DNA of 60,031 nucleotides from Bacteroidia bacterium (GTDB lineage: Bacteria; Bacteroidota; Bacteroidia; Chitinophagales; UBA2359): positions 1-60,031 of the forward strand of contig JAUHXA010000047.1 of the NCBI GenBank assembly GCA_030427245.1, read 5' to 3'. Positions 2,287 to 13,775 of the stretch are shown piece by piece. The notes beneath the pieces were generated by a model, which was not told where the DNA came from, searched no databases, and saw nothing but the letters and a program-made list of their open reading frames with translations. The first letter of the stretch is position 1, and the number at the start of each line of letters is the position of its first letter. The position numbers and the translations under genes are program-made.

Positions 2287-4416
2287 ATGAAAACACTCAT
2301 GCAATTTTCAAGCCCTAAGCCATGGGCGAAAGCCTTTTTATTTGTATTGGCATACTTGTTTTTAAGTCCAAACCCAATCCATGCCCAAAACGACAAAGCT
2401 GTCAAAAAGGTGGAAAAACGTACCAATCAACAGTCTTTTACCCACATTCTCCGCACCAATAACAACAAGCTAATAGAAAGCTGCGAAAATTCTTCCTATC
2501 GAACAATTGATGGTACTTGCAACAATCCTGCAAACATCGAATGGGGAGCTACCGATATTGAGTTGATGCGCACCATGAACACAGATTACAATAATCCAGA
2601 CACATGGAACGATATGGCTGGAGAAGGCCGACCCAGTTCAAGAGCCATTTCCAACTACATATCAGCACAATCCGAAAGCACCCCAAGTCCTCGAAACCTC
2701 AGTTCTTTTGTGTTTACTTGGGGGCAATTTTTAGACCACGATATAGATCTCACACCCGAAGGTCACACCGAATACGAACCCATCCAAATGCCCGAAGACG
2801 AACCCTTATTTACGACCGATATCCCCTTTTTCCGTTCCGAAATCCACGAAGGAACAGGCGAATCCAACGCACGACAACAAACCAATTTGATTACCTCTTG
2901 GATAGATGCCTCCAATGTCTATGGCTCGGAACAAACGAGAGCCGATTGGCTGCGAACCTATTCGGATGGAAAGTTGAAAACCTCCACAGGAAATTTATTA
3001 CCCTTCAATACCATTGATGGAGAGCAAGAAAGCAATATTGATGAAAACGCTCCAAGTATGGCAGGAGACGGTAGCGGTACAAACAAGGTGTTTGTAGCAG
3101 GTGATGTCAGAGCCAATGAACAGTCTGGCTTAACCGTCCTACACACCTTATTCGTCAGAGAACACAACCGCATTTGTGAACAATTGAAGCAAAACGGTTT
3201 GACCGATGACGAAGAAATGTACCAAATAGCAAGGAAGAGAGTGGGGGCTTATCTTCAAGCTATAACTTACCGTGAATTCCTGCCTGCTTTGGGCATTCAA
3301 TTAGCTCCTTACCAAAACTACAGACCACATGTTCAGCCCGACATTTCTAATCTTTTCGCAACGGCGGCTTATCGTTTGGGGCATACAATGGTGACGGAAG
3401 AACTGTTGATTTTGGACAATCAATGTGAAGATGTCGAAAGCGGATCAGTTTCTTTGTTGGAAGCTTTCTTCAATCCAACAGTCGTCAAAACCTATGGACT
3501 TGATCCGCTTTTGAAAGGCCTGTCTGTGCAAGTACAGGAGGCAGTGGATTTGCAGGTGATAGACAATCTACGCAATTTCTTGTTTGGAGACCCAACCGCA
3601 GAAGTGGTTGTTGGATTGGATTTGGTTTCTTTGAACATCCAAAGAGGTCGTGATCACGGCTTGCCTGATTACAACAGCATCCGAAAACAATATACTGGAA
3701 AACGAGCGCAAAAATTCAGCGACATCACCAAAGACAATGCACTCAGAACTGCCTTGAGTGATGCCTACGGCAAAGACATTCACAATATTGACGCTTGGGT
3801 AGGTCTATTGGCAGAGGACAAATTGCCGAATAGTTCGGTGGGGGCAACACTTCATGCAGTCTTGAAATCTCAGTTTGAAAGATTGAGGGATGCCGATGCT
3901 TTTTACTACGAATACGACAAAGCCTTGACTCACAATGAGCGCAACAACATCCGAAACACGACTCTTTCCGACATCGTTGAGCGAAATTCAGAGGTAACCG
4001 ATTTATCGGAGAATGTATTTTTTGCGAGAAACTGCAATATAGGTGGTGGCGGCAATGGCGGGAACCATGGTGGTGGGCATGGTCATGGAGACGGTCGTCC
4101 GAGACGTGGTCAGACCTCTCCCTCAGAAGGTCCAAACAAAACGAGTCTTGAAGTACAAGAAACGATTGCAGAATTGAAGGTATTCCCGAATCCAAACCTT
4201 GGAACATTCCAAATCAGTTTTCATATTGCAGAAGCGACTAATTTGCAGATTGAATTGGTCGGCCTAAATGGTGAAACAGTCTATCAAGCACAAGAATCCG
4301 ATTGGAGTGGAGACTATCAGCAAGTTATTCAATTAGATGCTGTGGCAAGCGGAATCTATATATTGAAGGTGACGACTGATGAACAGCGATGGACGGAGAA
4401 ATTGGTGATTCACTAA
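2287..4416 (+). CDS. Secreted animal-type heme peroxidase, T9SS-sorted
   Basis: A 709-aa protein of the peroxidase-cyclooxygenase (animal heme peroxidase) superfamily. A signal peptide ends near IHAQ. The distal-His region WGQFLDHDIDLT lies near residues 145-157, the catalytic Arg region LFVREHNRI near 290, and the proximal-His motif AYRLGHTMV near 360. LNIQRGRDHGLPDYN near 450 is a family hallmark. After the catalytic domain comes a Gly/His-rich linker (about 582-605) and then a T9SS sorting domain (LKVFPNPNLGTFQISF onward). These enzymes use hydrogen peroxide to oxidise halides or organic substrates; a surface or released location is predicted. The Gly/His linker could bind metal. It is monocistronic. 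Confidence 0.92.
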   Translation: MKTLMQFSSPKPWAKAFLFVLAYLFLSPNPIHAQNDKAVKKVEKRTNQQSFTHILRTNNNKLIESCENSSYRTIDGTCNNPANIEWGATDIELMRTMNTDYNNPDTWNDMAGEGRPSSRAISNYISAQSESTPSPRNLSSFVFTWGQFLDHDIDLTPEGHTEYEPIQMPEDEPLFTTDIPFFRSEIHEGTGESNARQQTNLITSWIDASNVYGSEQTRADWLRTYSDGKLKTSTGNLLPFNTIDGEQESNIDENAPSMAGDGSGTNKVFVAGDVRANEQSGLTVLHTLFVREHNRICEQLKQNGLTDDEEMYQIARKRVGAYLQAITYREFLPALGIQLAPYQNYRPHVQPDISNLFATAAYRLGHTMVTEELLILDNQCEDVESGSVSLLEAFFNPTVVKTYGLDPLLKGLSVQVQEAVDLQVIDNLRNFLFGDPTAEVVVGLDLVSLNIQRGRDHGLPDYNSIRKQYTGKRAQKFSDITKDNALRTALSDAYGKDIHNIDAWVGLLAEDKLPNSSVGATLHAVLKSQFERLRDADAFYYEYDKALTHNERNNIRNTTLSDIVERNSEVTDLSENVFFARNCNIGGGGNGGNHGGGHGHGDGRPRRGQTSPSEGPNKTSLEVQETIAELKVFPNPNLGTFQISFHIAEATNLQIELVGLNGETVYQAQESDWSGDYQQVIQLDAVASGIYILKVTTDEQRWTEKLVIH

Positions 4417-4620
4417 TTTTCTTGATGCGAGAGGAGGGATTTCATTTTTCTGAGAATATCTCTCTTTGTTCTCGCTTCTTTTATCTGACCTCCTAATCAA
4501 AGTAAGTTTTTTTAGTTGATTTTATGGGCCTTGGCGACATTGGGAGTGTTGCTGAGGCTCTTTTTGTTTGGTTTAGGAAAGTTGAATTTTTATAAATATA
4601 TCCGATTCTGTTCTCCTCCA

Positions 4621-5547
4621 TCACTTCATAATCCGCTTAAAATCATCCACATTTTTTGCCAAAATGGAGTAGGACTTTTTCAATTGGGCTTTGACATCTG
4701 CTCGGTCTTTATGGCGGATGTCAATGTCCAATTTGTCCAATACGTGAATCCACGCCAACAACTCAGCCGTAGCAGGTTTCTTCCGCATTCCCTTGTTTTT
4801 GCGAATGTACTCAAAATGGTCAATCGCCGCTTCCAACATACTTTCCTTGAACGAATCATTCAATGTCAAACGGCTGTTCACAATTTTCATCAGCAAATCT
4901 TTGTCGGGAAAGGGAATGTGGTAAAATACACAACGCCTTAAAAAAGCATCGGGTAGATTCTTCTCTGAATTGCTCGTAATGACGACTATCGGGCGGTTTT
5001 CCCGATTCCTCACCTCATATTTTTCTTTGGTTTCCTTGACGGTAAAACGCATTTGCTCGATTTCGTTCAACACATCATTCGGAAAATCACGAGGAGCTTT
5101 GTCAATTTCATCTATCAAAACCACCGAACCTTCTGTGTCGGAATTGGCAATTGCCTTGCCCAATGCCTGCAATTCAATATATTCGCCTACCTTCAATTTC
5201 GCCTCCGCCTTGTCCTTCAATTGGGCATCGTGAAAGTGCCGCAAGGATTCGTAGTTGTAAAACAAATCCCTTGCCACAGACTGCGACTTGGTGTGAAACT
5301 CATGCAGCGGCACGCCCAACTGATAGGCGATACTTGCCGCCAATCGGGTTTTGCCTGTCCCTGGTTCTCCTGTCAACAACAAAGGCTGTTCTAATGCCAA
5401 TGCGACATTAACCGCATCGGCTAATTCTTCGGAAGCAATGTAACCTTTTGGGTCAGTGACGTTTCGGACTTGGTAGTCGGATAGGATGCGCTTTAGGGAG
5501 CGTTCTGAGAGGGTTTGGTTGGTGGGGGTGTAGATGTTGAAGGGCAT
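4621..5547 (-). CDS. MoxR-type AAA+ ATPase
   Basis: A 308-aa single-domain AAA+ ATPase. Walker A is GEPGTGKT (residues 60-67), Walker B is VVLIDEIDK (142-150), sensor 1 is ITSNSEKNLPD (190-200) and the arginine finger region is AFLRRC (201-206). The length and motifs fit the MoxR group, ATP-driven remodelling proteins that usually work with a von Willebrand factor A (vWA) protein. No separate vWA gene is adjacent, but the large FGE protein at 8.6-12.1 kb contains a vWA-like region, so the two may be partners. It is transcribed in the same direction as RT, the FGE protein and TIR, but a palindromic element and a plus-strand gene lie between them. It could also be an independent gene; its membership of the island is inferred. 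Confidence 0.88.
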   Translation of the reverse strand: MPFNIYTPTNQTLSERSLKRILSDYQVRNVTDPKGYIASEELADAVNVALALEQPLLLTGEPGTGKTRLAASIAYQLGVPLHEFHTKSQSVARDLFYNYESLRHFHDAQLKDKAEAKLKVGEYIELQALGKAIANSDTEGSVVLIDEIDKAPRDFPNDVLNEIEQMRFTVKETKEKYEVRNRENRPIVVITSNSEKNLPDAFLRRCVFYHIPFPDKDLLMKIVNSRLTLNDSFKESMLEAAIDHFEYIRKNKGMRKKPATAELLAWIHVLDKLDIDIRHKDRADVKAQLKKSYSILAKNVDDFKRIMK

Positions 5548-5563
5548 GATGTTTTGTATTTAT

Positions 5564-5690
5564 AGAGCCTTGAACAGGAAGATTAATTGAAAGGAAGCTT
5601 GTACAGCGCAGTACTCAGTACACTTACAGCATGGTTTATTTACGTTAAGTGAGCTTCTTTTTTATTACCTTTCATGTTCAAAGCTGTGTT
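5564..5690. repeat. Palindromic element, copy 1 (family A)
   Basis: An approximately 125-bp imperfect palindrome. The left end GAGCCTTGAACAGGAAG runs into ATTAATTGAAAGGAAGC; the right end contains TTCATGTTCAAAGCTGTG. Its reverse complement matches both ends of the copy at 13,858-13,988, including TTTCAATTAA(A)TCTTCCTGTT. The inner part has the short palindrome AGTACTCAGTACAC-like region. It encodes nothing and looks like a non-autonomous MITE- or REP-like repeat. Confidence 0.7.
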
Positions 5691-5741
5691 CAGAGATTTC
5701 AACTTAATTTCGTATATTTTCTATCAAAGATAACAATTACC

Positions 5742-6521
5742 GTGATTCACAAAGAATTAATTTACGACATAATCGGCTGTATGTTGGACGTATACAAACA
5801 ATTGGGCAATATTTGGCCCGAAAGCATCTACGAACAGGCTTTGCAAATAGCACTTCAAGGAAAAGGCATTCATGCTGTTGCTCAACACAGCTATGAAGTC
5901 GTTTACAAAAAAGGCAAAGTAGGTTTATACAGACCTGATTTGTTGGTAGAAGATAAGATAATCATTGAACTCAAAGCAGTCGAGAAACTTCAAAGCCTCC
6001 ATAAAGCTCAATTGATTTCCTATCTCAAAGGCTTTGATAAGCCCATTGGAATCCTTGCCAACTTTACAGGCACAAAATTGGCTCGACAAATCATCCCCAA
6101 CAAATACCACCAAATGACGGTATTACAGAATGTATTGGATTTTGAGAAAGTGAACATTCCTTCAAAAAACGAACTCAAATACATTTTTGATACCGCAGCC
6201 GAAGTTTTGAAGGTTTTAGGACCAGGTTTCTATGAAGAAATCTATCGTCGAGCCTTTTTCAAAGAACTGAATTTTAGAAAAATTCCTTTTGAAACTAAAA
6301 ACAAGGTGGAAGCTTTCTTCAATGAAAGCAGTTTGGGCGAAAAATACGTGAACTTCTTCAAACTTCAAAAAAACACTTTGGTCGCAACTATTGCTGTCAA
6401 AGAAATTAATCCTGTTTTGAAATCAAGATTCGCCACTTATATCAAACTCATGGGCTGCACTCAAGGCTTAATTTTCAATTTTAGTGGCTTGAGATTGCAG
6501 TTTAGTTATGTGCGGTTGTGA
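5742..6521 (+). CDS. Tandem GxxExxY-domain protein (PD-(D/E)XK-like)
   Basis: About 259 aa from GTG 5742; an in-frame ATG at 5649 exists but lies inside the palindromic element, so the GTG (VIHKELIYDIIG) is preferred. Two GxxExxY-family domains are joined. The first has NIWPESIYEQAL, then RPDLLVEDKIIIELKA, which supplies the D...ExK nuclease-like core. The second begins LGPGFYEEIYRRAF but lacks the D and ExK residues (VNFFKLQKN then TIAVKE), so it appears degenerate. GxxExxY proteins belong to the PD-(D/E)XK fold, are common in Bacteroidota and Cyanobacteria, and have no settled function. The gene is flanked on both sides by family A palindromic elements, suggesting it can move or was inserted as a cassette. 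Confidence 0.75.
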   Translation: MIHKELIYDIIGCMLDVYKQLGNIWPESIYEQALQIALQGKGIHAVAQHSYEVVYKKGKVGLYRPDLLVEDKIIIELKAVEKLQSLHKAQLISYLKGFDKPIGILANFTGTKLARQIIPNKYHQMTVLQNVLDFEKVNIPSKNELKYIFDTAAEVLKVLGPGFYEEIYRRAFFKELNFRKIPFETKNKVEAFFNESSLGEKYVNFFKLQKNTLVATIAVKEINPVLKSRFATYIKLMGCTQGLIFNFSGLRLQFSYVRL

Positions 6522-6527
6522 GGTGTG

Positions 6528-6650
6528 AAGCTTTGAACAAGAAGGTTTAATCAAAAAGAAGCACACCTGATGTAAAGGAATTGTTCTGTTTAATGTGTGC
6601 TGCTCTGTACGAGCTTCCTTTCAATTAACCTTCTTGTTCAAGGCTGTACG
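6528..6650. repeat. Palindromic element, copy 2 (family A)
   Basis: It begins AGCTTTGAACAAGAAGG and ends with TTCAATTAACCTTCTTGTTC AAGGCT (a long arm, split here for length). The ends are inverted repeats of each other, and the orientation matches the 13,858 copy and is inverted relative to the 5,564 copy. It abuts the stop codon of the reverse transcriptase gene. Confidence 0.7.
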
Positions 6651-6651
6651 C

Positions 6652-7752
6652 CTAATCCAAGAGCCGCCACGCAAAACGGTCTGTTTTTACCAAGTTCAAT
6701 CCTTTATCTTGTATCTCAAAATAGAGCGTATTTTGCAATCTAAAAGTGTCTGCTTGCTTCGCATGACCCAACCAACTGTTCAGCCGACATTCAAAATCTG
6801 CCACCTTCAATTTCTCTTTCCGAAACTGTTGGTTATTGTCTTTCAAACGTTTCCGAAATCTACGAACATTTTCTTTCTTCAGCAAGCGATGGGTGTCAAA
6901 AATGCGCTGTCCTAAAAAAGTAACTCCATTTTTCGTTGGAAAAACATGGGTCTTTTTGGGATGCAACAACAAACGATAGTTGGCTAAATAGGCTTCAATT
7001 TGGCTTTGTGCTGTTCGCAATTCTTCTTTTACATTGCCAAATAACACAAAATCGTCCACATAGCGAATATAGCACTTTATTTTCAAATCTTCCTTCACAA
7101 AATGGTCAAAGCGATTCAGATAAATATTGGCAAAATACTGACTCGTCAAATTGCCTATCGGCAAGCCTTTTCTTCGTTCAAAAGGAGTAAACAAATCATC
7201 TCCTTCAAAATAAGGGCAATGCTGCTCTTGTTCGTTGCTGTTGTCAATAATCAAATCAATCAGCCACAGTGTTTTGCGACAAGCAATTTTTCGACGGATT
7301 TCTTGCTTCAAAACCGCATGGTCTATACTCGGAAAGTACTTCCGAATATCGGACTTCAAAACATATTCATTGCTATGCAAATACTCTTGACATTTCCGAA
7401 TCGCTGCATGAGTGCCTTTGCCCTTTCGATTCGCATAGCTCGTATCAATAAAACTGCGCTCAAATAAAGGTTGAATGACATTACACAAAGCATGATGCAC
7501 GACCCTATCTCGATAAGGGGCAGCGCTGATCATTCGTTTTTTGGGGTCGAAAATGTAAAAACTGCGATATGCTCCTGATTGATAGGTTTGTGCTTCCAAC
7601 TCTGCTTTCAAATCCAACAACTCCCACTCCAATCGAAAGTGAAAGCGGTTTACATTTGCCTGTGAACGCTTGCCTTTTCGAGCTTGCAGAGCAGCCAACA
7701 CCAAATTTTCAAAATTGGTAATTTGGTGAAATAAATTTTTAAACCTTTTCAT
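6652..7752 (-). CDS. DGR reverse transcriptase
   Basis: About 366 aa from the ATG at 7750-7752 (a TTG two codons upstream is possible). Reverse transcriptase motifs in order: [13 protein letters not shown] (about 133-145, motif A region), [18 protein letters not shown] (about 196-213) and [10 protein letters not shown] (about 229-238, catalytic YVDD). The IGNLTSQ form of motif 4, the small size and the absence of a maturase or endonuclease domain are typical of diversity-generating retroelement RTs rather than retrons or group II introns. With Avd it should copy the TR RNA into cDNA with errors at adenines and install it in the VR. The final codons overlap a 19-bp stretch identical to part of the TR. 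The family A element follows immediately. Confidence 0.93.
6656..6674. repeat. 19-bp VR/TR-like relic at RT 3' end
   Basis: The 19 bases 6656-6674 are identical to TR positions 8386-8404; 18 of them also match the VR. Read on the minus strand in the other frame the segment gives TVLRGGSW, the conserved FGE block that opens the VR. In the RT frame the same bases encode FAWRLL. This looks like the stub of a former VR or TR copy, cut off by the palindromic element at 6528-6650. Confidence 0.6.
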
Positions 7753-7774
7753 AAACAATTCGATTCAATTCAAT

Positions 7775-8113
7775 ATGCAGCAAGAAACCATCATCGAAAA
7801 ATGCTACAACTACTTGAAAATCAACATTTCCATGATTGATTCCTTTCCTCGCCGGCAACGGTTTTTGATTGGTGAACGACTCCAATCCCTCAATGCAGAA
7901 TTATTGGAAATGCTCATTGAAGCCTACTATTCACCCAAAAGTCAAAAAAAAGCAATATTGCGAAAAGTAAACATCAAAATCGAAAAAATCCGATACTACC
8001 TTCGCCTCTGCTATGAATTGGGATATTACGGCTCTCGAAAACACCATTATCTGCTTGAAAAACTCAACGAAATAGGGCGGATGACAGGAGGTTGGTTAAA
8101 AAGTGTGTCTTAG
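7775..8113 (+). CDS. avd: Avd-like DGR accessory protein
   Basis: A 112-aa helical protein matching the accessory variability determinant / four-helix-bundle family. Landmarks are FPRRQRFLIGERL (about 25-37), LIEAYYSPK, a Lys/Arg-rich helix (ILRKVNIKIEKIRYYLRL) and the typical end LNEIGRMTGGWLKS. Avd forms a basic pentameric barrel that binds the RT and nucleic acid and is required for mutagenic retrohoming in studied DGRs. It is transcribed divergently from the RT, with only 22 bp between the two start codons, and opposite to the VR gene. Most DGRs place avd in line with the target gene and RT, so the orientation is unusual. The reading frame is intact. Confidence 0.85.
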   Translation: MQQETIIEKCYNYLKINISMIDSFPRRQRFLIGERLQSLNAELLEMLIEAYYSPKSQKKAILRKVNIKIEKIRYYLRLCYELGYYGSRKHHYLLEKLNEIGRMTGGWLKSVS

Positions 8114-8289
8114 AAAAACTCAAAAAACACAACACAGGTCTTTCGACTCAAGGCTACTAAACCCATGCTGCCTTTTTTGTGTTCGGCTGACAGCAAAAAA
8201 AGCCACCAACACAGGAAACCGCTTTGAAATCCTTAGGGGCAACGCTCTTGACAAGGCACAATACCTACGTCAAGACTCTGGCTAAAATA

Positions 8290-8419
8290 AAGGTGTTTTG
8301 GCGAGCCGAAAACCGTTGTTGTTGTTCCTATTATCAGGATTGTTGTTGTTGCGATTAGAAGGGCGACAGTTGGAATTGTTATTGTTCCAAGAGCCGCCAC
8401 GCAACACACGAGAGGCATC
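8290..8419 (-). repeat. DGR template repeat (TR)
   Basis: A 130-bp sequence matching the VR at an offset of 289 bp. Read on the minus strand in the VR frame it encodes RGGSWNNNNSNCRPSNR, then NNNNPDNRNNNNGFRLAKTP: runs of AAC/AAT codons at exactly the positions that vary in the VR. There are 38 coding-strand adenines; 16 are changed in the VR (8 A to T, 7 A to G, 1 A to C) and none of the other 92 bases differs. The boundaries were placed where identity stops. It lies between the VR and RT in the same orientation, as expected for a DGR template RNA. The region has no intact gene on the minus strand. Confidence 0.95.
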
Positions 8420-8449
8420 ACTTAATAAGCCGTTTCCTTTGAAGTCACT

Positions 8450-8482
8450 AAACTACAAAAGTCTTCAAGACTTTTGTAGTTT
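8450..8482. repeat. Perfect 16-bp inverted repeat between VR and TR
   Basis: The arm AAACTACAAAAGTCTT (8450-8465) is separated by a single C from its exact reverse complement (8467-8482). It lies about 97 bp past the VR end and about 30 bp before the TR in transcription order. DGRs often have a hairpin or cruciform just after the VR that aids retrohoming; this one is farther away than usual. It could also act as a terminator or as TR RNA structure. There is no U-tract on the minus strand. Confidence 0.7.
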
Positions 8483-8576
8483 TCACAGCTCAAAAAAAAT
8501 TTTGTCTCGCTTCGCTCGACATTAAAAGCCAAAAAGGGCAAAAGCACAAAAGGGTAAAAGTGTCAGAGCGCAGAGA

Positions 8577-11500
8577 CTAAGGAGTTCTGGCGAGCCGAAA
8601 ACCGTTGAGGTCGTACCTATTATCAGGATAGTAGTAGCCGCGATTAGAAGGGCGACAGTAGGAATCGTCATTGTACCAAGAGCCGCCACGCAACACACGA
8701 GAGGCACCGCTTGAAAGTCCCTGTGGATTTTGGCGAGGGCTGTTTTTATAATAGTCTGCATCGTACCAATCTGCACACCATTCGTAAACATTTCCACTCA
8801 TATCGTAAATGCCCAATTCATTTGGTTTTTTGGTTTTTATTTCATGCGTTTGACTATTGGAATTGCTATCATACCAAGCCACTTCTTCAATGTCATTGCT
8901 ACCACTATAAGTATAGTTGTTGCTTGCCTGTCCTCCTTTTGCCGCATATTCCCATTCTGCTTCGGTAGGCAGTCGTTTACCTGCCCACTTTGCATAAGCA
9001 TCCGCACCATACCAGCTCACATAAATAACAGGATTATTTTCATAGCCATTTTCGACTTCAAAAATATCTCCGTTTTTTACAATCCTACACTTTTCACTTC
9101 CGGAACTACCTTCCAAATTTATCCATTTATCAATTTCGCCTGTTGTATTATCATTCAAAAACTGTGCATATTGGACATTCGTTACTTCATGCTCGTCTAT
9201 GTAAAAATCATCCAAAACCACTTCATGAACAGGTTGTTCATCTTCTCCTCCATCATTGCTTCCCATTTGAAAACTGCCTCCTTCCACAAAAATCATATTG
9301 CCCTCCACTTTTGGAGCCAATTTAGCCGCAAAATCCTCCAATTGCTGCTTCAACAGGCTATCGCTTGTTTCCTCTTGCAGTCGTCTTGCCATTGAAGCCA
9401 CACGACCTTTGTATTTGTTGTCGAAATAAGCACTGTCCTTTTCGTACAAATATTCCCAATCCTGTACAGCTTCTTGCACCTTTCGCTTGCGTCCATTCAC
9501 CAAAGCCCTTGCATAATATACATCCAATAAACTGCTGTCTGCTTCCGCCGCCTTAGAGAATACATCTGCTGCACGAAACATACGGTCGGGAGATTCCTCA
9601 TATTTTTGGGCATAATGACTCGCCCCTGCATAAAAATAAGCTTTCGCTGCCAATTCTTTTCTTCCCAAGCCCTCCAAACTATCTCCTTTCTCCTCCAATA
9701 TCCGAACAGCACTCACTGCATAATCCGCTAATGCTATCTCTGCCCGATGTTTGGTAATGTGAGCAGGTAGGTATTGCAGTCTCAAAGCACTATCAGCCAT
9801 TGCCATACAATTCACCAACAAAGTATCTCGCAACAAACTATCGCTTACTTTCGCCACAAAAGCCACCTTCAAATAATCCAAAGCCTGTTGATGGAAAAAT
9901 TGAGCCGAATCTTTGGAAGTGTCCAAATAATATCGTTGATTTTGGTGGTGAGCAATACAGTCCGTTTTGGGCGGATAAATCAAAAACATACTCAGTAGCA
10001 AAATCACCCCTGCCAAAGTCCATCGAAAACCCTCTTTCGTTCCCAACATCGGCATCCCACTTTTATAAAACACCTTCTGCAAAAAATCGGGCAACTGAAA
10101 ACCCAATACTACCTTTGTAGCAGGGTCGACATACTCCAATATACTGTATTCTTCAGAGGATTCGGAAAGATTAGTATTCCCCCTTTGAAGAGCCTGCTCC
10201 GAGGACTCGGAGGGGCTAGGGGGAGGTTTACGTGCAGATGAGAAGATATTCTCCCACTTCTTCACCACCAACAACATCTCATAAGCCGCAAACACATTCG
10301 CCAAAGGCTTGACCACAGGTACAGCAGTTTGTTCCCTCTCCATCAATGCCACAATCTCTTGCTTCACCACCTCCTCCGTTTCCTTGTCCAAATCTCGAAT
10401 CAAAGCCATTCGCAGTTCATCGGGCATTCTTCCTGTTTGAAACCACGGAAGGCGAGAGAGTTTGAGTAAGTCATTGATGGGATTGGCTTTGTAGTCGTGA
10501 ATCAATTGGAGGGCTTTGCCGAGTTGTAGGGTGAAATCCCAATGTAGTTCGGGATAAACAGCACAGGCGCAGAGCCATTGATAGGTTTGGGGGGAAAGGT
10601 AGGATTGGAGTTCGGTTTTTACCCACCCCCAGCCCCTCCCAAGAGGAGAGTTTTTATTCCCCTCCAAGGAGAGCTTGTGCCGAGAACTCGGTAGGTTAGG
10701 GGTGGGTTCTGCGTCAAATGAGGGCGGCACTTCCAACTCCTCCAAATCCAACCACTGCCCTAAATTCCCATCATCATCACCCTCAAAAATTCCAATCAAA
10801 CGAGCCAAAGCATAAGGTTGGGCAGGCAGCAGGATAAACTGTTCTGACAGGGTAATTTCGGGATAGGTCCACCACTGCGTAGGTTTGGGGCTGAGAATCG
10901 CCTTTTGTTGCCAAGTCTCAAACAAGTTCACCCATTCTCGCAGTTCGTCGTTTTGAGGATTCACCAAAGCCTCCGCATCTCCGAAAATCAACAAACGGTG
11001 TTTGGGATAGCGGTTCGCCAATTCCTCCAAATACACATCGTCTTCAAAGGCATTTTTCCAGCACACTCTTGGGTCGCTGCGGTAGAAAAAACGCTCTATG
11101 AAAATATCCTGTTGCTGCAATTCCTTCACCCATTGTTCAAACAAACGGGTTTGGTGGCTTTTGATGTGTGGTTGGTCTATCAACACCAAATATTCGGGCG
11201 CACGAGTGCCGCTGTTGTAGGCAAAGGTCGGATAGCCCCCTTCGTCAATCGTCGTTTCCACGCTTTTCTCCACATCCAAACGAGTATTATTGCTCGCCAC
11301 CCTCCGCCGAAAAGCCTTTGCCGTTTCGTAAAATTCTTCCGATTGAAACAACTTCAAATCGGGATGCGACAAACGAATGTGGTGGAAATGATGCGGCTGT
11401 TTCTTCAATTCTTCCTTCACCAATATCAACTTTCGCCGCCGCCAACGAAAAAACTCATACAAGACAAAAGCAAACAATGCCAAAAAGATGCCTCCCCATT

Positions 11501-12083
11501 TGAGGTACAAACCGTACAAATGCCAAATTCCTGCCTCCAAATGCGAAATATCTTCTTCGAGCAATTCGCCCTTGGTAGTCAATGGAATGGATTCTCCTTC
11601 TAGTTCGGTGAGGTTGATTTCCTCGGTGGCTTCGGATTCTTCTACTTCCTCAGTTGGAGGATTTACTACTACAGTTTCTGTTGTATCTAAGATGGCATCT
11701 TTGTCAATTGTAAGGCTGTCAGTTGAATCAAGTTTTTCGTCTATTGCCTTTACCTCGTCCTGTAAATACACTTTCCAAAAAATCCCACCTCCAATCAAAA
11801 ACGCCAAAATTATCGCCACCAAATATTTCCAAGAAGAACTTTTAGCATCCATAATAATTTCAGCATCCTTCAATCGCTGTTCCTCCGCAATCGCTTCTTC
11901 TCTTTTGCTTTGTCGGTCGAACTGTTGAAAATAACGCTGAAAAGCCCGTTTAAACAAAAGCTGTTCCTCCTCGCTTTTCGCAAAAATGGGCGACAACAAC
12001 TGCCTCAAACGCCCTTCTTCCACTGATTCTCCTTCCAATTTGAGCAATAGACGTTTGACCTGCAAGTGCGTATCTGCACCCAC
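8577..12083 (-). CDS. DGR variable protein: TM, vWA-like, FGE/CLec fold
   Basis: A 1,168-aa protein from GTG 12083. Order: charged helical N-terminus (1-80), TM helix (about 87-103), acidic linker, TM helix (about 194-213), a vWA-like region (about 295-430; YLVLIDQPHIKSH replaces the usual DxSxS, so metal binding is doubtful), a helical region, a third TM (about 695-712), a TPR-like helical stretch (about 740-910) and an FGE-sulfatase/C-type-lectin fold (about 927-1168; MIFVEGGSFQMGS, RLPTEAEWEYAA, GNVYEWCADW, RVLRGGSW). The VR covers residues 1126-1168. Catalytic Cys pairs of true FGE enzymes are not both present, so ligand binding is more likely than catalysis. Two proline-rich in-frame inserts (about 458-488 and 619-636) derive from palindromic repeats. 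The frame stays open upstream to 12,273 with family-like sequence (FLLLGGFIDYLQQEGF), but no ATG exists there. Confidence 0.88.
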   Translation of the reverse strand: MGADTHLQVKRLLLKLEGESVEEGRLRQLLSPIFAKSEEEQLLFKRAFQRYFQQFDRQSKREEAIAEEQRLKDAEIIMDAKSSSWKYLVAIILAFLIGGGIFWKVYLQDEVKAIDEKLDSTDSLTIDKDAILDTTETVVVNPPTEEVEESEATEEINLTELEGESIPLTTKGELLEEDISHLEAGIWHLYGLYLKWGGIFLALFAFVLYEFFRWRRRKLILVKEELKKQPHHFHHIRLSHPDLKLFQSEEFYETAKAFRRRVASNNTRLDVEKSVETTIDEGGYPTFAYNSGTRAPEYLVLIDQPHIKSHQTRLFEQWVKELQQQDIFIERFFYRSDPRVCWKNAFEDDVYLEELANRYPKHRLLIFGDAEALVNPQNDELREWVNLFETWQQKAILSPKPTQWWTYPEITLSEQFILLPAQPYALARLIGIFEGDDDGNLGQWLDLEELEVPPSFDAEPTPNLPSSRHKLSLEGNKNSPLGRGWGWVKTELQSYLSPQTYQWLCACAVYPELHWDFTLQLGKALQLIHDYKANPINDLLKLSRLPWFQTGRMPDELRMALIRDLDKETEEVVKQEIVALMEREQTAVPVVKPLANVFAAYEMLLVVKKWENIFSSARKPPPSPSESSEQALQRGNTNLSESSEEYSILEYVDPATKVVLGFQLPDFLQKVFYKSGMPMLGTKEGFRWTLAGVILLLSMFLIYPPKTDCIAHHQNQRYYLDTSKDSAQFFHQQALDYLKVAFVAKVSDSLLRDTLLVNCMAMADSALRLQYLPAHITKHRAEIALADYAVSAVRILEEKGDSLEGLGRKELAAKAYFYAGASHYAQKYEESPDRMFRAADVFSKAAEADSSLLDVYYARALVNGRKRKVQEAVQDWEYLYEKDSAYFDNKYKGRVASMARRLQEETSDSLLKQQLEDFAAKLAPKVEGNMIFVEGGSFQMGSNDGGEDEQPVHEVVLDDFYIDEHEVTNVQYAQFLNDNTTGEIDKWINLEGSSGSEKCRIVKNGDIFEVENGYENNPVIYVSWYGADAYAKWAGKRLPTEAEWEYAAKGGQASNNYTYSGSNDIEEVAWYDSNSNSQTHEIKTKKPNELGIYDMSGNVYEWCADWYDADYYKNSPRQNPQGLSSGASRVLRGGSWYNDDSYCRPSNRGYYYPDNRYDLNGFRLARTP
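8579..8708 (-). repeat. DGR variable repeat (VR)
   Basis: It occupies the last 43 codons of the FGE-fold gene, ending at the TAG at 8577-8579. Residues that vary relative to the TR all fall on TR Asn, Lys or Thr codons: N to Y, D, D, Y in the first cluster, N to G, Y, Y, Y in the second, and Y, D, L in the third. The unchanged scaffold (RGGSW, CRPSNR, PDNR, NGFRLA) keeps the fold. The GC-richer invariant block reading CGGCTCGCC on the minus strand near the 3' end is the likely initiation-of-mutagenic-homing region; two adenine changes lie beyond it. Confidence 0.95.
10176..10226. repeat. Palindromic repeat inside the VR gene (family D)
   Basis: CCCCCTTTGAAGAG pairs with a downstream GGGGCTAGGGGG arm around the inner hairpin CTCCGAGGACTCGGAG. 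It encodes the low-complexity stretch PPPSPSESSEQALQRG in the membrane protein. The same CCCCYNNCCCCTTCAAAGGGG theme occurs between genes at 15,614 and 18,040, so it is a mobile or spreading intergenic repeat that landed in frame. Confidence 0.65.
10620..10709. repeat. Second palindromic repeat inside the VR gene (family D)
   Basis: ACCCACCCCCAGCCCCTCCC pairs imperfectly with GGTTAGGGGTGGGT at the far end, with the inner hairpin CCGAGAACTCGG. It encodes PTPNLPSSRHKLSLEGNK followed by NSPLGRGWGWVKTE, a sequence type that recurs in Bacteroidota proteins carrying such repeats. Confidence 0.65.
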
Positions 12084-12207: not shown

Positions 12208-12336
12208 TGAACAGGAACTGCTAGATGTAAAAGAACTTTGCCGCACTGAGTTTTGGTCTTTTGTGTTCGTATTCAGTGTGGAAAATCCAACGTCCAATGC
12301 GGAAAGTTCCTGCCCAATCTAGCAGTTCTTGTTCAC
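12208..12336. repeat. Palindromic element, copy 3 (family A-like)
   Basis: The outer arms GAACAGGAACTGCTAGAT and ATCTAGCAGTTCTTGTTC are near-perfect inverted repeats; an inner stem pairs CCGCACTGAGT with ATTCAGTGTGG. It lies between the TIR gene and the FGE gene, overlaps the TIR stop codon (12,333-12,335), and extends into the open frame upstream of the FGE gene. It shares the GAACAGGA end and the GCCGCACTGA core with the other copies. Confidence 0.65.
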
Positions 12337-13775
12337 ATCCCCCTTATCTCCGCCTGCCCCTCATCCCTTCTCAAATCCTCAATGGGTTTTTTAAAGGTCG
12401 CTTCAATCAATTCCATGGGTACTTTGTCTTGATTGGCAAACAATTGGTCTGCAAGAGATTTCATTTCGTGTAAATCAAAATCTCTTATCCAAATCCGCAC
12501 ATCTTCCATAGTCACAGGCTCTAAAGTTGCCAGCAAGTTACAATGATTTTGCAGTTCGTTAGCCAATTTCGTCAATTGCTGCTGCACTTTTTCGGTTTTA
12601 TTGGGTTGGAAAAGCCGCTTCAAAAAACCTTTTTTCGTTTCGGGATAAATGACATTGAGAAACACAATCACATAAAGGTTTTCCTGTTTGATTTGCACCT
12701 TCCAAAAATCTCGAATGTACCATTGCAGCAATTGCAGGGTTTGGGCATCCCAAGAATCGCATGAAATATTGTGTTGCAGCACAATGACTCCGCCCGCAGT
12801 ACGACTTTGATACAAATCCAACAATTCTCGGGCTGTCCAATTTGCTCCATTGAGTTTGTCTATTTCATCGGCAATTTTACGTTTAAGTTGCCGCTTGCGA
12901 AAAGGCAAATCTTTGGAAACAGGAAATTCTTTGATGGTGTAAAAATCAACGACTCCTTTGGTTTGGCTGATGATTTGAGCCGCCAAGTCGTAGATTTTGA
13001 ACTCTTTGAAGCGTTCCACCAAATTGTAGTGCTGTTCTTCAAAAGGCCCGTGAATCAAATAGAAAAAAGGTTGGTTGAAATCGGGTGAGATGCGCTGTTC
13101 GATACAATCTGTAAACTCTTCGCTTTGGTCTTTGCGGTCACAACGCAAATACAACAACGCACGTTTTTTGCTTTTTCTATCTTCTTCTTGCAGTTCCTGC
13201 TTCTGTTCCGATTCTATTGAAGGGAAAGGGTCGTGCAAAAATATTTTTTCCCTCTCAAAGATCTTTGCCTCTGAATCAATTTCAAACGCTTCCTTTTCTT
13301 CCTCTTCTGTAGGATTCAGCAGTTCGTAAATAGAAGTCGCTATTTCGCTCAATTGATAATCTCTTGAAAAACCTTCATCATTGACAATAGGAATTACTTT
13401 GCCTTTTTCATTCAATTTTGAAGGTAGAGGCTGTAAATCGGCAAAAGGTGAGTTTTTCCAAAAGCAGTAACGACCTATGAGGGGAATAACACGAGCTTCT
13501 CCATTTTCGTGTCTTTCAATGGCTTGGGTTAGTTGAACATCGTAGGTTTCATCATTGGATAAAAAATCGGAACTGATAAGCAAAAGTATGAGATTGGCTT
13601 TCTGCAAGTATTCTTCCACCGTTTTATCGGTCACCTTTCCCGCTTCTATCTTGCCATCGTGGTGGATTTGGATGTCCAAACTGGACAAATGCTTTTCCAA
13701 TTCCTCTCGAATCGCAGTATCTTGAGGAGCATAGGCAATGAAAATTTCGGTGGTATTAGAATGGTTTGGCGGCAT
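12333..13775 (-). CDS. TIR domain protein with iSTAND-like C-terminal region
   Basis: A 480-aa cytoplasmic protein. The TIR domain spans about 10-155: EIFIAYAPQDTAIREEL at the start, NLILLLISSDFL in the middle and ARVIPLIGR near 94-102. The stretch YDVQLTQAIERHE aligns with the usual YDxEM...ALERHE helix, with Gln in place of the expected catalytic Glu (my alignment by eye). A coiled, charged linker follows, then about 195-450 resembling the inactive STAND (iSTAND) module: FFYLIHGPFEEQHYNLVERF is a degenerate P-loop-like start and GGVIVLQHNI a Walker-B-like strand. TIR domains often cleave NAD+ or assemble signalling complexes. It is upstream of and co-oriented with the FGE protein and is likely co-transcribed with it across the palindromic element. 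Confidence 0.82.
   Translation of the reverse strand: MPPNHSNTTEIFIAYAPQDTAIREELEKHLSSLDIQIHHDGKIEAGKVTDKTVEEYLQKANLILLLISSDFLSNDETYDVQLTQAIERHENGEARVIPLIGRYCFWKNSPFADLQPLPSKLNEKGKVIPIVNDEGFSRDYQLSEIATSIYELLNPTEEEEKEAFEIDSEAKIFEREKIFLHDPFPSIESEQKQELQEEDRKSKKRALLYLRCDRKDQSEEFTDCIEQRISPDFNQPFFYLIHGPFEEQHYNLVERFKEFKIYDLAAQIISQTKGVVDFYTIKEFPVSKDLPFRKRQLKRKIADEIDKLNGANWTARELLDLYQSRTAGGVIVLQHNISCDSWDAQTLQLLQWYIRDFWKVQIKQENLYVIVFLNVIYPETKKGFLKRLFQPNKTEKVQQQLTKLANELQNHCNLLATLEPVTMEDVRIWIRDFDLHEMKSLADQLFANQDKVPMELIEATFKKPIEDLRRDEGQAEIRGM

Follow-up and report, generated by a model that had tools for sequence, protein, structure and literature searches.

A template-repeat stub at the 3' end of a DGR reverse transcriptase gene, most likely left by a change in cassette order

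The window analyzed here, a 60,031-nt stretch of the Bacteroidia bacterium contig JAUHXA010000047.1 (GCA_030427245.1; genome size 7.58 Mb), contains a diversity-generating retroelement (DGR). Read along the minus strand, an FGE-type target gene with a variable repeat (VR) is followed by the working template repeat (TR), the avd gene in opposite orientation, the reverse transcriptase (RT) gene, a palindromic repeat, a plus-strand GxxExxY gene, and another palindromic repeat in inverted orientation:

8577-12083, minus strand: target gene, 1,168 aa, with an FGE-sulfatase domain at the C-terminus (residues 929-1166) and the VR at its 3' end
8579-8712, minus strand: VR, 87% identical to the TR
8290-8423, minus strand: working TR, 134 bp with 40 adenines
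8114-8289, minus strand: post-TR spacer of the presumed TR RNA, 176 nt, resembling the post-TR spacers of downstream-TR relatives
7775-8113, plus strand: avd accessory gene, with bAvd and DivGenRetAVD matches above cut-off
6652-7758, minus strand: DGR RT, 368 residues, with an RVT_1 match
6656-6674, minus strand: TR stub, identical in 19 of 19 bp to the 5' part of the working TR (8386-8404)
6529-6645, no strand assigned: palindromic repeat, family A core as defined by an alignment of 13 copies; in this copy the inverted repeat spans 6521-6653
5649-6521, plus strand: GxxExxY (PDDEXK_3) gene with two domain copies, between both palindromic repeats and behind the stub
5563-5685, no strand assigned: second family A copy, in inverted orientation

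An intact YxDD box is an expected feature of DGR RTs, and here it reads YVDD. The same translation contains IGNLTSQ, which satisfies (I/V/L)GxxxSQ, given as the DGR-type RT motif in the accessible text of PMC3521204. Of the 134 positions of the TR/VR pair, 17 are mismatched, 16 of these at TR adenines; with RT and avd both present and mismatches placed nearly all at TR adenines, the locus is a DGR having the expected parts. The working TR would most likely feed ordinary mutagenic retrohoming into the FGE-type target, in a presumably active cassette. The avd and RT genes lie on opposite strands, divergent, with a 16-nt gap; avd is on the RT strand in all 33 relative loci (32 places) with an avd match. 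Near the target gene are an AAA_5 ATPase (MoxR-type match below cut-off) and a TIR-iSTAND protein (window 4621-5547 and 12333-13775); a MoxR-family ATPase (L081) and an AAA-family ATPase (L080) stand beside FGE genes in relatives.

Another piece of TR sequence lies at the RT 3' end. The first-pass annotation had equated bases 6656-6674 with TR 8386-8404, and this identity is confirmed at every one of the 19 positions. The VR shares 18 of them; the final stub base (A) agrees with the TR, not with the VR. With up to two mismatches allowed, the 18-mer TTGCGTGGCGGCTCTTGG occurs at three sites in the genome, namely the TR, the VR and the RT 3' end, and its reversed control pattern has no match genome-wide. 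When the TR is locally aligned to the RT 3' region the score is 19, whereas 200 shuffles never exceed 11 (0/200 as high). The stub reads LRGGSW in the TR/VR frame and ..FAWRLLD* in the RT frame, with the stop right after: it does supply the last RT codons, as had been proposed, and the companion reading TVLRGGSW has to be shortened since its T and V fall outside the 19-bp identity. On the 5' side, bases 6675-6693 are unlike the present TR flank, and the 19 further positions shared there by TR and VR (17 identical) are absent from the RT end; on the 3' side, the match to the TR ends at once.

A complete adenine-rich TR is absent behind the window RT, where 19 bp are left and no other TR pieces of at least 14 nt were reported (5400-6655). 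A genome-wide TR search listed the TR, the VR and a TR on contig C18, with no second TR half; it also missed the 19-bp stub and is therefore blind to other short pieces. The family A core ends at 6645 and the inverted repeat reaches 6653, placing the seam 3-10 bp away from the stub. The dispersed palindromic family has 20 matches in 15 places genome-wide, three in the window. Its repeats are about 100-120 bp long (AGCyTTGAACAAGAA .. TTCTTGTTCAAGGCT) and lie at window 5563-5685, 6529-6648 and about 13954, and on 12 other contigs; two inverted copies flank the GxxExxY gene. No target duplication was seen by eye at the 13 aligned copies, and insertion of the palindromic element into a TR as the cause of the truncation is unproven.

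Where do the relatives of this RT keep their TRs? RT searches gave matches in 12 genomes among 60 relatives (E 0.001), in 13 of 395 genomes of the class (1e-40), in 33 of 395 genomes of the phylum (1e-50) and in 5 of 20 genomes of the family (1e-20), each count including the window's own genome; the 20 family genomes comprise no other member of its genus. Other RT matches came from genome contigs (6 loci), plasmids (35 records), phages (74 records) and viral contigs (two loci, both with distant RTs); 13 of the plasmid and phage records were taken for study. The comparison set consists of 61 relative loci plus the window, more distant RTs (L029-L034, L073-L076 and others) being excluded. No relative found exceeds 57% protein identity over most of the RT (L107, at 60%, is a partial match), which leaves intermediate states unseen.

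A TR-like RGGSW stretch follows the RT by no more than 200 nt in 29 of the 61 relative loci, one of which is present twice, its second copy being L137. Another 26 loci have the TR upstream; in L065 and L067 it follows the RT by 510 nt and 968 nt, in L081 it lies elsewhere, and none was detected in L120 and L134. The downstream-TR types include Poribacteria (L017-L019), cyanobacteria (L020, L021, L078-L080, L082 and L085) and Prosthecochloris (L084), and also occur in genomes of the family, class and phylum to which the window belongs. The place just behind the RT, where the first-pass annotation advised looking for a TR or VR in relatives, holds a TR in 29 of 32 relatives measured, a proportion that is not a frequency because these relatives were picked mostly as apparent downstream-TR types. 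Their RGGSW-type TRs start 52-174 nt after residue 340 (window numbering of the RT), 23 with an adenine-biased repeat pair and 6 with the motif only. The TR overlaps the RT end by roughly 8-16 nt in L068 (in one of two pairings), L069 and L109. Behind the RTs of 25 of the 26 upstream-TR loci (all but L136, where the contig breaks off within the RT; two of the 25, L131 and L132, are near copies), a stub scan found nothing above shuffles: the lowest were L087 (8/200 as high) and L127 (13/200), against 0/200 for the window. One downstream-TR locus, on the Anabaena sp. 90 plasmid pANA02 (L082), has its TR at 6081-6205 behind the RT and two VRs at 2892-3015 and 3929-4053; the DGR that the excerpted text of PMC7517822 calls degraded in Anabaena sp. 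90, with the RT alone detectable, may or may not be this locus.

The spacing of the stub matches that of a downstream TR. From the codon of RT residue 340 to the start of LRGGSW, the distance is 64 nt in the window, 66 nt in L078, L079, L080 and L085, 67 nt in L084 and 69 nt in L082. The RT stop, by contrast, comes 84 nt after residue 340 in the window and 42 nt after it in seven downstream-TR relatives (L017, L018, L078, L079, L080, L082 and L085), so that the suspicion of an altered RT C-terminus is supported: the window RT is about 14 codons longer than these relatives and, in another frame, runs through the stub. The spacings of 64 and 66 nt differ by 2 nt, which fits a frame change of the window RT end. 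Late stops occur elsewhere, at 96 nt in L020, 81 nt in L021 and 93 nt in L081, with tail sequences that differ from that of the window; a long RT tail by itself is not special.

The counter-case named in the first-pass annotation was a WRLL-type end shared among homologous RTs; none of the 61 relative loci ends in WRLL. RTs whose TR lies elsewhere end in other residues, e.g., ..NLLRSLGL.. or ..FIKKPE. WRLL-like strings arise only from out-of-frame TR DNA, as 'VWRFLEQQ' in L063 (RT frame, past the stop) and 'SWRLLEQQ' in L064 (another frame). Aligned by tblastn to the 61 loci, the window RT matches no further than residue 351 of 368, except in L125 and L130 (358) and L084 (368); the last reaches the end because the alignment crosses the annotated stop into the L084 TR.

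The sequence that follows the working TR also bears on its origin. Compared with the post-TR spacers of eight relatives, seven of them downstream-TR types, the 176-nt spacer (8114-8289) scores 253 against a shuffle mean of 159 (0/300 as high; z 9.5). The same test gives z -0.2 behind the VR, -0.6 behind the stub and 0.5 behind the C18 TR. When 2,722 window pieces from both strands were scored, the top three all overlapped the spacer, and 2,303 scored at least as high as the stretch behind the stub, for which 226 of 300 shuffles did as well against the cyanobacterial and Poribacteria spacers. The present spacer also resembles those of the sister clade f104 (seven loci; z 5.8), to which the post-stub stretch has a weak likeness (2/300 shuffles as high; z 2.65); sister-clade spacers are themselves weakly like the cyanobacterial and Poribacteria ones (35/300 shuffles as high for L121, 2/300 for L128). 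An nhmmer profile of the relatives' spacers had no match at the window post-TR spacer, where the pairwise tests did find likeness, and Rfam had none in 5400-8900 up to E 1. On the simplest reading, the present TR with its spacer would share one lineage with the downstream TRs found in relatives of this RT.

The RT tree comprises 56 of 62 rows, the partial or duplicate ones (L020, L021, L085, L132, L136 and L137) being left out; L120 and L134 were labeled as upstream by kinship, L065 and L067 as downstream despite their 510 and 968 nt, and L081 was unlabeled. The best identity to the window RT within the tree is about 56%. The window is sister to 15 rows of family f104 (support 99/97), with the TR upstream in all 13 where it was detected. 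Window and f104 group with cyanobacteria (91/85) and then with Poribacteria (83/85), where TRs are downstream except in L081; both of these supports are below the tree program's mark for firm support. Because the nearest sister clade has its TR upstream, an ancestral downstream TR rests on the deeper, moderate branches together with the stub. The window stands between both arrangements, with a trace of each. Its stub is unmutated over 19 bp despite the deep split from the sister clade, which leads us to infer a fairly recent loss of the old TR in the window lineage, perhaps independent of the change in f104.

Other DGR parts occur in this genome, in which the RT search has the RT of contig C131 as its sole match. 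On contig C18 (G000:C18:26000-34000; L077) there is a second TR/VR pair (TR 4312-4427, VR 3593-3708) in which 13 of 13 mismatches fall at TR adenines. Its RT is apparently deleted to about the last 34 codons (EYQRHILPLLAFTQYASTKKLRQEIIEKLEGQSS*), a tail likened by eye to L063 and L065, with the TR shortly after, and its target gene combines a caspase domain with an FGE domain. This pair may be served in trans or may be dead. At G000:C84:17104-17265, bAvd has a second match that is partial and contains an in-frame stop; it is probably a pseudogene.

Why, then, would a DGR with an upstream TR carry 19 bp of TR behind its RT? The preferred reading, to which we give a probability of roughly 0.87, is that these are the first bases of a former TR directly behind the RT, that the TR-RNA module now stands in front, and that the old copy was cut. 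The ancestral state would have been a TR directly behind the RT, as in cyanobacterial, Poribacteria and many same-phylum DGRs. The module (TR plus the spacer of about 176 nt) would since have come to lie in front of the RT, beside the VR, and truncation would have left the old TR copy with roughly its first 19 bp. The usual RT stop would have been lost by a small change of frame, so that the RT reads the former spacer and the stub, stops at the seam, and gains about 14 residues. That the upstream TR derives from the downstream one, by a move or a duplication, is our inference, as is the order of events. On one possible route, an avd-RT-TR block would have been duplicated in tandem, after which the first avd-RT was deleted and the second TR truncated. 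The inversion of avd relative to the 33 loci implies at least one more rearrangement. A narrower version of this history has about even odds: the locus would be a frozen intermediate of a cassette-order switch, in which the module was duplicated to the front of the RT, both copies coexisted, and erasure of the old one left no more than a stub, which the RT frame absorbed.

A different history, unlikely rather than far-fetched, would join two DGRs: recombination placed an RT with its own downstream TR next to a TR/VR pair already resident, after which the downstream TR, being redundant, decayed. Such joining would sit well with the dispersal of DGR target genes and loss of parts within genomes described in the available portions of PMC7517822, with the inverted avd as a sign of rearrangement, and with C18, where a second TR/VR pair has lost its RT. 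The spacers speak against it: the present one resembles the post-TR spacers of this RT's own relatives, and that of the C18 TR is different (z 0.5). The likeness of the spacer to those of RT relatives, taken with the 19-bp identity of stub and TR, makes both TRs look like one lineage.

Could the stub be the start of a second VR, the last of a target gene that once lay beside the RT? The first-pass annotation had left VR and TR side by side; the TR fits much better, and the VR is very improbable. In favor of the VR, 18 of the 19 bp are common to VR and TR; in L067 the RT strand carries an FGE-like frame after the RT, and in L081 a gene with a VR runs convergently toward the RT. Space speaks against it. 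With LRGGSW 64 nt past residue 340, the body of a target gene would not fit, which led to rejection of this candidate; a second, exact deletion would be required. In addition, the last stub base is that of the TR, and most measured relatives carry a TR at this spot.

Still a little less probable is a later copy of the TR, pasted into the RT 3' end as cDNA or as a recombination product. DGR machinery does produce TR cDNA, and perfect identity over 19 bp between dissimilar flanks is what such a paste could look like. It would, however, have had to land in the right orientation and no more than 2 nt off the spacing of four cyanobacterial DGRs, and nothing comparable lies behind the RT in the 25 other upstream-TR loci, nor does the 18-mer occur anywhere else in the genome. 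Chance or a conserved functional RT C-terminus can be dismissed, even though the stub is coding in the RT frame and three cyanobacterial RTs (L020, L021 and L081) have long tails: chance was rejected on the genome search, which confines the 18-mer to this DGR, and on the shuffle control, and a conserved tail because the relatives' RT ends differ, with WRLL in 0 of 61 loci and other sequence in those three tails.

How does this arrangement compare with known systems? In the accessible text of PMC3521204, DiGReF structural group 3 is defined by a TR overlapping the end of the RT ORF. As far as groups 2 and 3 (TR downstream of or overlapping the RT) are described there, the window is like them in the position of the TR start, its orientation and spacing, the overlap with the RT end, and RT kinship, with cyanobacterial loci at 50-56% identity to the window RT; it differs in that only 19 bp are kept behind the RT and the working TR is upstream. 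Bordetella phage BPP-1 (VR - TR - RT; L086) shares the VR, the TR upstream of the RT and adenine-specific differences, whereas the window has an inverted avd between TR and RT, a downstream-TR stub, and an FGE-type target instead of a phage tail protein. The nearest RTs, at 52-56% identity, are those of the sister clade f104 (L121-L133 and L135, plus L120 and L134), which have the TR upstream on the RT strand; there, unlike in the window, avd is on the RT strand, the TR lies between avd and RT, and a stub was not found. Degraded DGRs in cyanobacteria and Treponema likewise lose some parts and keep others; in the portions of PMC7517822 and PMC4891356 that describe them, the cases are of absent RTs, RT-only loci and left-over target genes, whereas here a vestigial TR stands beside an intact-looking cassette.

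Variable cassette order, TRs overlapping RT ends and degraded DGR loci are already known from the literature, within the text available. Surveys classify DGRs by how TR, VR and RT are ordered. The relation of cassette order to RT phylogeny is described as not tightly correlated in the accessible part of PMC3521204 and as clearly clustered in that of PMC6642488. A vestigial TR fused into the RT frame does not appear in the accessible portions of the literature covered (including PMC6642488, PMC3521204, PMC8144416, PMC7517822, PMC6199706 and PMC4891356), a body in which subscription papers are mostly outside the scope.

Thus, in a DGR that is otherwise ordinary, a change of cassette order most likely left behind an abandoned template start, that of a TR rather than a VR. 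An old template position kept in this way is direct evidence on the direction and kind of one such change. It also provides a recipe for finding more cases, a search for wrong-frame TR 5' codons at RT 3' ends, and a caution that what is annotated as an RT C-terminus can be left-over template DNA. If the duplication reading is true, template RNA genes would be mobile units inside DGRs, which would help to explain why cassette order is so variable.
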